Source: Candidatus Bathyarchaeia archaeon (GTDB lineage: Archaea; Thermoproteota; Bathyarchaeia; Bathyarchaeales; Bathycorpusculaceae). From it: 64,000 nt of DNA. This document shows, piece by piece, positions 22,958 through 28,559 of the stretch. The DNA lies in assembly GCA_038873195.1 (NCBI GenBank), contig JAVZEV010000001.1:772490-836489 (forward strand). Reading direction: 5' to 3'. A program made the translations under genes and the position numbers. The notes beneath the pieces were generated by a model. That model saw only the letters and a list, made by a program, of their open reading frames with translations, did not search any database and was not told the DNA's origin. How positions within the stretch are numbered: the first letter of the stretch is position 1; the number at the start of each line of letters is the position of its first letter.

Positions 22958-22958
22958 G

Positions 22959-23033
22959 TGGGCCGGACCGGATTTGAACCGGTGACCTTCCGCACGTCAA
23001 GCGGATGTCCTAACCGAGCTAGACTACCGGCCC
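22959..23033 (-). tRNA. tRNA-Val (anticodon GAC)
   Basis: A complete cloverleaf on the minus strand: acceptor GGGCCGG/CCGGCCC with an A discriminator, anticodon stem TCCGC/GCGGA around loop TTGACGT, and T arm ACCGG-TTCAAAT-CCGGT. The anticodon is GAC. CCA is not encoded. Its 5' 40 bases (22994-23033) are duplicated at 28313-28352, so this gene is the attachment site of the integrated element. The present 5' half and promoter region come from the element side, while the 3' half is host DNA. Confidence 0.95.
22994..23033. repeat. left attachment repeat, within the intact tRNA-Val
   Basis: Forty bases identical to 28313-28352. The identity ends where base 22993 (c) differs from 28312 (a) and 23034 (t) differs from 28353 (g). 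It covers tRNA positions 1 to ~40 and also encodes a peptide of the integrase (RAGSLARLGHPLD). Confidence 0.95.
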
Positions 23034-23286
23034 TTGTATTTTCAGTAAAGGAGCCGTTATTAAAGAGTTTTTGGTCAATGTTGTTTAGGTCAATTGGGTC
23101 AATCTTGCTGTTCGTCTGCTTATTTTTAATAACTGAGTTAGCATACTCTAAACTTTGCTTGTGGTATTCAAACCTAGGCTTCTTTGTCGTTGGATCTAAT
23201 CCTATGTAGTGCTTGACTCTATAGTAATTGTTGCCAATGCGCTGCAAGTAGCCTTCTTTTCCACAGACCCCACAGACAACCTTCAT
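23034..23286 (-). pseudogene. integrase N-terminal fragment, int(N)
   Basis: The ATG at 23286 follows GGAGGTGAAAGC at ideal spacing. The 84 residues before the repeat begin MKVVCGVCGKEGYLQRIG with a CxxC zinc-like pair, then YYRVKHYIGLDPTTKKPRFEYH. That N-terminal pattern is common to archaeal tyrosine recombinases of TACK lineages. The frame continues into the tRNA repeat and then meaninglessly through the tRNA 3' half. In the excised circle it would continue instead into the C-terminal part at 28312. This is a naturally split gene and not decayed: both halves are intact in frame. Confidence 0.85.
23052..23062 (-). promoter_or_regulatory. TATA-like box now upstream of tRNA-Val, inside int(N)
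   Basis: The minus strand reads CTTTAATAA about 23 nt before the tRNA 5' end, close to the usual distance for an archaeal tRNA promoter. It lies in the integrase coding sequence supplied by the element. It would replace the original tRNA promoter, which now sits beyond 28352 next to a TTTTAAAA about 30 nt from the right repeat. Confidence 0.45.
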
Positions 23287-24026
23287 TCTAGCTTTCACCT
23301 CCCTACTGTTTTTGACTGCACCTTGGGTCAATCTAAGCATATAAAGACCATTAAAACTGGTTCGTTAACGGTTTAGTATGTATTCAATGCTAAAACAAAC
23401 TATTTACATCAACCATAAGCAATACATTTTAAAGCATAATTCTGTCCTAGACAGGTAACAATAAACACATACTAAAAGGCTTGAAAATAGCTCTGTCCTG
23501 TCTGCATATCTTTATGATTCCCTATTTAAAAGTGATTAAAAAAAGGAATGGGCAGTCTTGCAATCAAACGACACCATGCCTTGGATTTCCCGAACTGCCT
23601 CCCAAGGGCTTTGTTCGCTGAACAGAGAATGAACATAAGGTTCCTTACTTGATTAAGCTATATTCTACTTGATATCATGTGACTTACATGCAAGACAAGG
23701 CTATTTTTAGTATGGATGGGTAGTCTTGTTGGGCATTAAAAAAGAAAAAGTTTATAAGGGAAAGTCCCTTCTTTTCTTTCCCAGGAAGGAAAAAAAGCCA
23801 CAGTCTGAACTCGAAATGACGAATCATGCATAAGCAATAGTTATTTATTTACTTAAAGCTCAAATCTTATTGGTATTTACTAGAAAAGAAAGAAGTGAAC
23901 TTATCCTATTTATGATAAGTGATAATAGTCTATCTTAAACTGATAAACTCTTTGAGTTTTCATGTAAACTATTTGTAATTCATCTTCATCACTTATTATT
24001 ACACCTTTTTGGCAGTGTGTTTTAAA
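23287..24026. other. 740-bp non-coding region of the integrated element
   Basis: No convincing ORF. Three parts stand out. A GC-richer island at ~23545-23640 contains CCTTGG/CCAAGG (23579-23607) and TGTTC/GAACA (23612-23624) stems, plus an alternative GGCAGT/ACTGCC pairing. A TATA-like TTTATAAGGG at 23751 overlaps a perfect AAGGGA-AAG-TCCCTT hairpin (23756-23770), followed by an imperfect palindrome at 23772-23793. ATGGGYAGTCTTG occurs at 23548 and 23716, with a variant at 25006. It could hold a small RNA, a replication origin or operators. Confidence 0.4.
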
Positions 24027-24848: not shown

Positions 24849-25041
24849 TGTATTGCAGACACTAATAGACACTTTAACCAAATACTGTAAGAATAACTTT
24901 TTATCAAAAAACAAAGCAAATCTAGCATGTAAGTATCACGTTACAAGATTATATCAAGCAGATTTTGTTGATCAGAGCTTGAAAACAAGAGATAAAAAAA
25001 GGTTTATGGGTAGTGTTGTCCAAAGTGTTCTACGGCTATGA
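24823..25041 (+). CDS. possible 72-aa helical protein of the element
   Basis: The ORF starts within the last codons of the 84-aa gene (ATG at 24823, with upstream AATGGAAAG). Its N-terminal half is helical and Leu/Glu-rich (MERLEEELNVLQTLIDTLTKY), then a Lys-rich middle. Its end overlaps by 38 bp the 3' end of the beta-helix gene on the other strand. No family is recognised; it may be real or chance. Confidence 0.35.
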   Translation: MERLEEELNVLQTLIDTLTKYCKNNFLSKNKANLACKYHVTRLYQADFVDQSLKTRDKKRFMGSVVQSVLRL

Positions 25042-27277
25042 TTATGTCGTCCATGCTTATTTTTCCATCACTGTTTATATCACAGTTTGGATCGTAGTTT
25101 GGCTGTCCAATTTTTGAACCGAAAGCGTCACATAACAGGATTATGTCGTCCATTTTCACTTTAAGGTCACGATCAACATCGCCTGGAATGTATGGGACTG
25201 CAAATGCGAAGGTTGAAAGGTGAGTGGTTTCTCCACATATAATATTATTTTCTATGTCTACAGCAGTTGTTATGTTAGTCCATTCCTGTAGAGATTCATC
25301 CCAGTGCAGCAAGCACAAGTTCGCTTCTTCTTCAGCAGTCATGTTAGAATCATCATAAGCGATTCTAAGTCTAATAGTTCCAGAATAGTTAGCTGTAGTT
25401 TTAATATCATAATAGTTTTCTGCTAACTTGAAGCCGCTTGGTGGTTCAGGACCAACATCTATTATGTTAGCAGTTGTTAAACCAGCTACTGTCACATTAT
25501 CATAAATCAAACAAACTTCAGAGGAAGGAAAAGCTGTTACGTTCTGGCCTTCCATTGTTAATCCTCCAAATGGACCCATTAAAGGATAGTTATCCACGTT
25601 ATTTGCATCGATGATGTATGGAGTATCTCCTATACCATCACTACCAGTCTCATTCTGATAAGGACCACTATAAAAATCAACACCTGCATAGTCGCTCCAA
25701 TAGTTTCCACCAGAAGGATAACCATCATCCCAAACATGACCGCCATGTGCTTGAAAAATTATTTGTTTCTCATTGTTTATAAAATTGTTATGAAAAAATG
25801 TATTAATACCTCCCAAACAGTATACGCCACACCAACGGTTATTCAATATATTATTCCCATAAATAATATTAAATGATGACTGAAGGTAGATGCCAGCGAA
25901 GTTATTAGATAACACATTACCTGAAATAGTTTGACTTTGGGCATCACTGGCCCACACGGAAATGCCATTTCCCCTATTTCCTACTATATTGTTCTTAGAA
26001 ATATTGTTGTAACACGAACCATAAAAAATTATGATACCATTGCGGCTATTTATTAGTTCATTTCCATAAATGTTGGTGTAGCTTGTATTGAGCAGTTCGA
26101 TTCCCGCAGATGTATAGGAAAGGTTAAGGTTTTCTATCCTAATATTAGTACAGCTAACTAAGACTACTTGACCAGCATTCTCAACAACAACATTAGAGTT
26201 GCCTTCCAAGTATACGAGAGGCTTTCCATTAACTGCATTATTGACAACAACGTTATGATATGAATTAATAATCCGTAGTCCATCGCCAACAAAAACATTT
26301 TGACTTATATTATTATAATTCGAGTCACCAATCAAGCATAATCCAGAAACTTCGTTACTTGTTAAGTTGTTTGCTGTGATGGTATTATTTGAAGACTGTA
26401 AGAGGTAAACACCATAGAAGCTGCAATTATATATGCGATTTCCTGTTATAGTAGTATTCCTTGTATTGACTAATTCTATGCCAATGTTAGTGAATGACAA
26501 AGTCATATTCTCTATACGTATTGCGTCACAGTTAACGAGTATAACCTGCCCAGAGTCTTCTATTGTTGCGTTTGAAAAGTTCTCAAGATATGTCAATGGC
26601 TTGCCATTCACAGTATTATTTACAACTATATTGTTATAAGAATACCCATTTAGGAGACCGGAATTAACAAATATGTTTTCAGAAATAACATCATAATTTG
26701 TATGCCGAAGATCGATTCCTGCATTTTTGCAATTTTCAAAGTAATTTTTAGTTATATTAGCATTTGAGCTGTCAGGATGAAAAAAAATCCCGTATAAGCT
26801 ATTTGTTATGTTATTTTCAGAGAACACATCAAAACTACCGCTTACCTCTAAACCCAATTCATTACTAGTTATACAGTTCTTAACAAAAAAGTTTCCTTCT
26901 CCCTGAGCAAATATACCTCCATAAAAATTTTCGATGTTCATATTTTTAATAGTCACGTTATTACATTGTTGAATTTGGATCCCAGTATACGAATTATAGA
27001 TGATTGGCTCAATATGATGGTCTATGCCATCAAGAATAATGTTGGACCTTTCAATAACAATTCCGTCTCCAGGGCATACAATGTTATCTGTTAACGTGTA
27101 TGTTATATTATCATAGGTTATTATTGGCGCATCGGGTGGGTCTATGCTTCCATCAGCCCTTATGTAGATTGTTCCACCAGTCCATTCGCCTTTAATAGGT
27201 TTAATTTCAACAGCAAATGTTAACATGCCAATAAACAACAAGGCTACCATTATTCCAGAAACTATCCACTTCAACAT
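25004..27277 (-). CDS. secreted parallel beta-helix protein with C-terminal dockerin-like domain
   Basis: A 757-aa protein. An N-terminal signal/transmembrane helix (~3-24) precedes GTIYIRADGSIDPP, a phrase common in archaeal NosD-type surface proteins. From ~90 to ~545 the chain is made of short Asn-rich repeats (NNITNSLYGIFF, NNTITANNLTSN, NISKNNIVGNRGNG), the pattern of a right-handed parallel beta-helix. A beta-rich segment follows. The last ~60 residues hold two dockerin-like Ca-binding loops (DVDRDLKVKMDDI; DINSDGKISMDDI). Carriage by a small integrative element is unusual. It may bind cell-surface glycans or act in attachment; that is inference. Confidence 0.85.
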   Translation of the reverse strand: MLKWIVSGIMVALLFIGMLTFAVEIKPIKGEWTGGTIYIRADGSIDPPDAPIITYDNITYTLTDNIVCPGDGIVIERSNIILDGIDHHIEPIIYNSYTGIQIQQCNNVTIKNMNIENFYGGIFAQGEGNFFVKNCITSNELGLEVSGSFDVFSENNITNSLYGIFFHPDSSNANITKNYFENCKNAGIDLRHTNYDVISENIFVNSGLLNGYSYNNIVVNNTVNGKPLTYLENFSNATIEDSGQVILVNCDAIRIENMTLSFTNIGIELVNTRNTTITGNRIYNCSFYGVYLLQSSNNTITANNLTSNEVSGLCLIGDSNYNNISQNVFVGDGLRIINSYHNVVVNNAVNGKPLVYLEGNSNVVVENAGQVVLVSCTNIRIENLNLSYTSAGIELLNTSYTNIYGNELINSRNGIIIFYGSCYNNISKNNIVGNRGNGISVWASDAQSQTISGNVLSNNFAGIYLQSSFNIIYGNNILNNRWCGVYCLGGINTFFHNNFINNEKQIIFQAHGGHVWDDGYPSGGNYWSDYAGVDFYSGPYQNETGSDGIGDTPYIIDANNVDNYPLMGPFGGLTMEGQNVTAFPSSEVCLIYDNVTVAGLTTANIIDVGPEPPSGFKLAENYYDIKTTANYSGTIRLRIAYDDSNMTAEEEANLCLLHWDESLQEWTNITTAVDIENNIICGETTHLSTFAFAVPYIPGDVDRDLKVKMDDIILLCDAFGSKIGQPNYDPNCDINSDGKISMDDIIIAVEHFGQHYP

Positions 27278-27474: not shown

Positions 27475-28113
27475 TTAGTTGCTTATTGTTTGTTCGAGTT
27501 CTGTTAATGCTTTGAATGTTCGGTCTCTGAGCTCTGTTAGTTTTGGGCTCCAGTAGTGTTTAATGAATATTGATGTTAGTATTCTGCCTTGTAATAGGTT
27601 AATTTCTGCTTCTAAGATTCCATGCTGCAACATGTAGGTCCCAAAATAATCTCTCAGCTCGTTTATTCTCATTCTGACATTCTTACGTTCTAGCTTTTTA
27701 CGAATAGCATTATAGCTTACTGGTTGACAATTACATATTTGTTTGATTAGTTCCTCTGGAATGAATGAAATAAAGCAATTCTTGGTTCTACGGATAAAGT
27801 CTTTGGGATACTTGAAGTGTAGCAAGCAGTTTAGGTTTTTGTCATAGTATCCGTTCAATAATTTTTTGTTGTTTAGTTCTATTATTCTATTGAAGCTTGT
27901 GACAGCCTCTTGTTTTCGTAATCCCGAGTATAGACAAAATTTTAGGAATGTGTTTTCTCTATCACTAAGGATAGGTCGAACTTCACTTACCCATTCCAGA
28001 ACTTCATTACCATTACTGTTAGTGTTTAGAATTCTAAGGAATGAAGTAAAACTATCTTGTCTAAGTATTTTAACTCCATGATCAAGTAATCTTTGTTTAA
28101 ATTGCTGATGCAT
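27475..28113 (-). CDS. integrase C-terminal part, int(C), tyrosine recombinase catalytic domain
   Basis: The ATG-bounded 212 residues are the catalytic half; the open frame continues upstream without a stop to the right repeat at 28352 (reading NIYIDWNYFRDWLKAKYSKQ after the repeat). Catalytic positions, numbered in the restored 376-aa protein, are Arg230 (SGLRKQEA), Lys275 (RRTKNCF), Arg318 (NELRDYF, with Asn at the usual His) and nucleophile Tyr351 (IKHYWSP). This is the archaeal tyrosine recombinase pattern. While integrated, this half has no proper start, so the enzyme is off until excision. Confidence 0.85.
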   Translation of the reverse strand: MHQQFKQRLLDHGVKILRQDSFTSFLRILNTNSNGNEVLEWVSEVRPILSDRENTFLKFCLYSGLRKQEAVTSFNRIIELNNKKLLNGYYDKNLNCLLHFKYPKDFIRRTKNCFISFIPEELIKQICNCQPVSYNAIRKKLERKNVRMRINELRDYFGTYMLQHGILEAEINLLQGRILTSIFIKHYWSPKLTELRDRTFKALTELEQTISN

Positions 28114-28312
28114 TCCCAGAAACTTGGATAAGACAATTAAAGCCTTAACAACTGTTGATTTAGTCGAATCTTTCAGAAAGTCTATTTGCTTAAGATTACC
28201 ATAAAGTAAATGATGATATTTCCTAGCATAACAGTATGTAGTGGCAGTATATTGTTTAGAATACTTAGCTTTTAACCAATCTCTAAAGTAGTTCCAATCT
28301 ATATAAATATTA

Positions 28313-28352
28313 ACGTCAAGCGGATGTCCTAACCGAGCTAGACTACCGGCCC
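28313..28352. repeat. right attachment repeat (original tRNA 5' half)
   Basis: Forty bases identical to 22994-23033, in the same orientation. Only the 5' half of the tRNA is present, so it is not a functional tRNA gene. The flank beyond 28352 is the ancestral upstream region of tRNA-Val. Confidence 0.95.
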
Positions 28353-28470
28353 GTTTCGGTATTCTCTATTTGATTAGGGTTCTTTTAAAATAGGTTTTCG
28401 GTTAATAAGAAGGCTACTCAGCAAGTAAACATTTTAAGATGTAAAAAGGATTAAATGAGCGTATAATAAT

Positions 28471-28559
28471 GCCGGGATGGCGGAGTGGATAACGCGCAGG
28501 CCTTGAGAGCCTGTGGACCCTTTGGGTCCGCATGGGTTCGAATCCCATTCCCGGCGCCA
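28471..28559 (+). tRNA. tRNA-Ser (anticodon TGA)
   Basis: Acceptor stem GCCGGGA/TCCCGGC, anticodon stem CAGGC/GCCTG around loop CTTGAGA giving anticodon TGA, a long variable arm (GGACCC-TTT-GGGTCC) typical of serine tRNAs, T arm ATGGG-TTCGAAT-CCCAT, discriminator G and an encoded CCA. It is just outside the integrated element. Confidence 0.95.

Follow-up and report, generated by a model that had tools for sequence, protein, structure and literature searches.

The gene of the classical SSV1-type integrases of Sulfolobus (Pfam PF16795) is partitioned into int(N) and int(C) upon integration into a tRNA gene, a feature shared with the element described here. Archaeal tRNA genes are transcribed from an upstream TATA/BRE promoter. 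In the case of pTN3 from Thermococcus nautili, the 41-bp attachment site (att) corresponds to the 5′ half of tRNA-Leu, and the rebuilt tRNA was described as “separated from its original promoter” (PMC5495485); with pTN3-like integrases, according to a review, such a tRNA is “expressed from the integrase promoter” (PMC8371274). Displacement of a tRNA promoter and expression from the integrase promoter are thus already in the literature for pTN3-like elements. A thaumarchaeal survey counted one 5′ case among 39 (PMC6563490); CalSub-E1 of Caldiarchaeum subterraneum is one isolated case in this survey, where we found no promoter analysis.

The window analysed here, meaning the whole stretch of DNA with its length of 64,000 nt, comes from a Bathyarchaeia-type archaeon and carries a mobile element of about 5.3 kb, bounded on both sides by 40-bp copies of nucleotides 1-40 of tRNA-Val(GAC). 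The features relevant to the present analysis are as follows.

22958..23033, minus strand: tRNA-Val(GAC), present once in the genome, with nt 1-40 forming att (ARAGORN and whole-genome tRNA search)
22994..23033, no strand assigned: left att copy, tRNA-Val nt 1-40 (40-bp perfect direct repeat)
23034..23286, minus strand: int(N), the 5′ part of the split integrase gene, running into the tRNA 5′ end (frame open across the joined att)
23059..23066, minus strand: proposed TATA box TCTTTAAT, starting at -33 relative to the 5′ end of the mature tRNA (score 5.9)
23339..23346, minus strand: probable promoter of int itself, CTTTATAT (TATA matrix score 6.8), followed downstream by GGGAGGTG and the start codon ATG (23284-23286)
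27475..28352, minus strand: int(C), core-binding and catalytic part, its frame continuing from the right att copy (PF16795)
28313..28352, no strand assigned: right att copy, half of tRNA-Val (40-bp perfect direct repeat)
28383..28390, minus strand: displaced native TATA box of tRNA-Val, TTTTAAAA, starting at -38 (same place in the G051 empty site)
28471..28559, plus strand: tRNA-Ser(TGA), adjacent to tRNA-Val in the empty site and divergently oriented (ARAGORN and G051 comparison)

The element’s integrase is of the SSV-like split type, with attP lying within the integrase gene, which integration splits. When int(N), att and int(C) are joined, an unbroken integrase frame of 394 aa runs through one copy of the repeat, which is translated in this frame as RAGSLARLGHPLDV. 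The catalytic part matches Pfam PF16795 Phage_integr_3 (archaeal phage integrase; E = 2e-10), and in the integrase alignment the R, R and Y of the motif R..K/HxxR..Y are invariant, the K/H place before the second R being occupied by N. Relatives of int(N) are 33-56% identical, and the named integrase relatives come mostly from ‘Candidatus Bathyarchaeota’ assemblies, on which the placement of the host is based. A search of IMG/VR returned no relative, and thus no free circular form with a 5′-half att; among plasmids the only match was pT26-2 (E = 0.5). As to cargo, the element encodes a NosD/right-handed beta-helix protein of 757 aa whose end is dockerin-like (25004-27277, minus strand). A similar dockerin-like repeat ends a gene adjoining an int(N) relic at tRNA-Gly(CCC) (L101), and therefore such cargo may be typical of these elements.

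The initial annotation of this DNA, made from the sequence alone, had proposed that the duplicated part is the tRNA 5′ half and that integration cut the tRNA from its original promoter, left beyond 28352 at about 30 nt from the repeat. These claims hold. The exact 40-nt repeat recurs at 28313-28352, and TTTTAAAA, with a TATA matrix score of 5.4, is separated from it by 30 nt. A genome of the same genus, G051, has the empty site, with tRNA-Val(GAC) beside tRNA-Ser(TGA). The element-free join of the window flanks aligns with it over 285 bp at 94% identity, and the alignment takes in the native CCTATTTTAAAAGAA promoter, around 28380-28394. As the native promoter is present in the empty site, integration really moved it 5.3 kb from tRNA-Val. 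The genome, which is 98% complete, has 42 tRNA genes, and a second tRNA-Val(GAC), named in the annotation as an observation that would speak against it, is not one of them. It needs to be mentioned that the displaced promoter now faces int(C), where 80 codons precede the first in-frame start (28113-28352, minus strand), an ATG at 28113; thus, at most the catalytic domain could come from it.

The SSV-like integrase uses the 5′ half of tRNA-Val(GAC) as its attachment site, and integration restores the tRNA, with everything upstream of it, the native promoter included, swapped for the end of int(N). We propose that codons near this end double as a BRE/TATA-like box, AAACTCTTTAATAAC. It is placed some 30 nt before the tRNA, which is where host tRNA promoters carry theirs. 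This predicted box would most likely recruit TBP/TFB and drive tRNA-Val. The minus strand upstream of tRNA-Val indeed reads AAACTCTTTAATAACGGCTCC..., i.e. the end of int(N), and the minus-strand box that the annotation had placed about 23 nt from the tRNA 5′ end is found there: CTTTAATAA, at 23057-23065, lies within the int(N) codons ...K-L-F-N-N-G-S..., 23 nt from the tRNA.

For scoring we used a TATA matrix of 8 columns derived from 67 host tRNA promoters of five genomes; tRNAs flanked by an integrase were excluded. The best score between -44 and -26 was taken, the matrix score serving as a proxy for promoter activity. The score of 5.9 obtained for TCTTTAAT corresponds to the 70th percentile of the 67 host tRNA promoters and to the 96th of the 3′-half control junctions described below, and the box falls within the range, about 25-45 nt before the mature tRNA, in which TATA (and BRE) are sought in archaeal tRNA promoters. 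An equal or higher score is reached by 2.5% of random anchors in the window, and 5% of synonymous codon shuffles of the int(N) protein match or exceed it (p = 0.052). Taken by itself, then, the box is only moderately unlikely to have arisen by chance, and the weight of the case lies with relatives and relics and not with this single site.

It is very likely that the element provides a tRNA promoter in some form, and, judging from the DNA and its relatives, the box inside int(N) is probably the main promoter of tRNA-Val. We infer that transcription starts at this box and that the box, rather than read-through from the int promoter, makes most of the tRNA. According to the read-through explanation, the promoter at 23339-23346 gives an int(N)-tRNA precursor from which RNase P excises the tRNA, the near box being incidental. 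Integration does leave the int promoter intact, and this promoter, with a host-like score, shares the strand of tRNA-Val and lies about 300 nt before the tRNA; moreover, the expression from the integrase promoter reported for pTN3-like elements (PMC8371274) is what such read-through would amount to. Two sets of observations, on related integrases and on their remains, nevertheless count against it.

Relatives were found across the order with an int(N)-domain profile, which gave 51 junctions where int(N) abuts a tRNA. They come in two orientations: in the 5′-half type int(N) leads into the 5′ end of the tRNA; in the 3′-half type it runs antisense into the 3′ end. After removal of near-copies, 22 5′-half and 28 3′-half junctions remained, all of the same integrase family. 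Because only 5′-half junctions need a new promoter, the 3′-half ones make a natural internal control. The median TATA score was 4.8 at 5′-half and 1.4 at 3′-half junctions, compared with 4.2 for host tRNA promoters. The two orientations differed in a rank test (p = 0.0055 with the 67-promoter matrix and 0.0021 with a matrix of 39 own-genome promoters), the 5′-half junctions did not differ from host promoters (p = 0.76-0.92), and in three neighbouring windows 5′-half and 3′-half scores were alike. The annotation had suggested looking for a conserved TATA box in related int(N) genes despite synonymous freedom, and the outcome was positive: a box above the host median is present at 13/22 5′-half but only 2/28 3′-half junctions (Fisher p = 9e-5), and under a synonymous-codon null on the linkers an excess is seen in the 5′-half group only (Stouffer p = 0.019; 3′-half p = 0.99). 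Residues and codon choice thus both contribute to the box. A 10-column matrix pointed in the same direction (p = 0.0018) and was dropped as overfitted; a narrower window of -38..-30 gave p = 0.00016, on which we do not rely, as it was picked after the profile had been seen. These comparisons are to be read with the tree in mind, as att orientation is clustered on the tree built from int(N), where it changes 6 times (at least 3 of the changes being forced), and the junctions are non-independent; with only 3 independent contrasts on supported branches, significance is out of reach there.

Read-through leaves the enrichment of boxes in the 5′-half group alone unexplained. Still, the box is not universal. 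Read-through would account for the 9/22 5′-half junctions that have no good proximal box, and those nine may rely on it. Two intact chromosomal relatives with a 5′-half att, L127 and L141, likewise score low at the box position.

Two further observations were made in this set. Int(N) genes of the 3′-half type (L092, L136, L098 and L090, for example) repeatedly contain, about 12-20 nt away from the 3′ edge of the tRNA, a string resembling TTAAGCTCT, which could be an integrase-binding site, a regulatory site or a result of codon conservation. In L087 and L146 a single tRNA seemingly lies between two int(N), of which one belongs to the 5′-half and the other to the 3′-half type.

The second set of observations comes from decayed integrases. 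Relics were identified by eye and by DNA alignment around tRNAs, an approach that favours what persists there; a tblastn search with int(N) against the regions upstream of tRNA-Val gave zero matches. In G055 and G002, which belong to other genera, frame-broken int(N) tails stand before tRNA-Val(GAC) with CTCTTAAATAATGGCTC kept, and the tails upstream of this tRNA in G072 and G077 also have a host-like box. In the own genome, a truncated, frame-shifted int(N) tail precedes tRNA-Gly(CCC), where G051 still has a full int(N). As no second att copy exists for this gene, it cannot regain its old promoter. What these relics retain is the box, and what they have lost is the int promoter together with most of int(N). 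This speaks against read-through and argues that the final 60-100 nt of int(N) would suffice without the int promoter. On the whole, we regard read-through as the main source of the tRNA as rather unlikely.

Far less probable still is that chance and shared ancestry explain the boxes, with AT-rich codons (K, N, L, F) of a poorly conserved linker yielding TATA-like strings that the 5′-half group inherited: the clustering of orientation on the tree and the modest statistics of the own box fit this idea, but 3′-half linkers are as AT-rich as 5′-half ones and yet score at or below their own codon null, the box persists in frame-broken relics, and it is present in L147 and L150, 5′-half members of a mainly 3′-half clade, and absent from L083, a 3′-half member of a 5′-half clade.

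The tRNA-Val/tRNA-Ser site is also occupied in a different genus, by L084 (G048:C24:1-1800), a related integrase with a CcdA-like ribbon-helix-helix (RHH) N-terminus replacing the zinc-ribbon, and it has its own box, CCGAAAGCTCTAAAT. Identical CCGAAAGCTCTAAAT precedes tRNA-Val in both G046 and G050, and a slightly altered version does so in G086, where no complete int(N) is left; it may have passed from integrase to host or, in the other direction, from host to integrase. At tRNA-Arg(CCT) in G073 (L103), what the present element displaced was already an int(N) tail, an older one of 84 nt that differs from the current tail at 4 places and has a good box (score 7.4), and at tRNA-Thr in G072 (L102) the displaced sequence is an RHH-type tail. 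Such cases suggest that one tRNA received successive or tandem integrations. We infer, in addition, that the box is kept in the integrase gene by selection for host viability. Whether the following wider picture is correct we consider an even bet: the integrase tail would be a mobile tRNA promoter within a coding gene, which replaces the host’s own, stays permanently after the element decays and can be displaced by the next tail, so that some promoters of essential tRNAs would be inherited from a succession of integrases.

If the proposed mechanism is true, about 40 bases and a short stretch of codons encode protein, act as recombination site, supply the first half of a tRNA and provide its promoter. 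The idea that one stretch of DNA codes for the recombinase, forms the attachment site and is predicted to drive the tRNA was already put forward in the initial annotation, and it gains support from the empty site and from the contrast among relatives. It would account for the survival of a host whose sole-copy tRNA has its 5′ half taken as a target, predict when 5′ or 3′ halves are open to integrases, and offer mobile elements a direct route to rewriting host core promoters. The contrast between 5′-half and 3′-half junctions also renders the older claim of expression “from the integrase promoter” directly testable.

In the part of the literature covered, we found no description of a TATA box within integrase codons, of the orientation contrast or of relic tails as host promoters. 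What appears to be new is a second archaeal group, a promoter-like box in integrase codons and the fact that hosts apparently keep this box as a promoter. The closest described systems, the pTN3/TKV4-like suicidal (SSV-type) integrases of Thermococcales, share with the present element an att inside int that matches a tRNA 5′ half (about 41 bp there, 40 bp here), and in both int is split and the rebuilt tRNA separated from its promoter; we liken them by att and by the outcome of integration. Unlike them, the present family resides in a Bathyarchaeia-type host, its targets include tRNA-Val, Gly, Arg, Thr and Ser, it has 3′-half members too, and many of its junctions carry, beyond the int promoter alone, a TATA-like box that lies in the codons of int(N), at about 30 nt from the tRNA.
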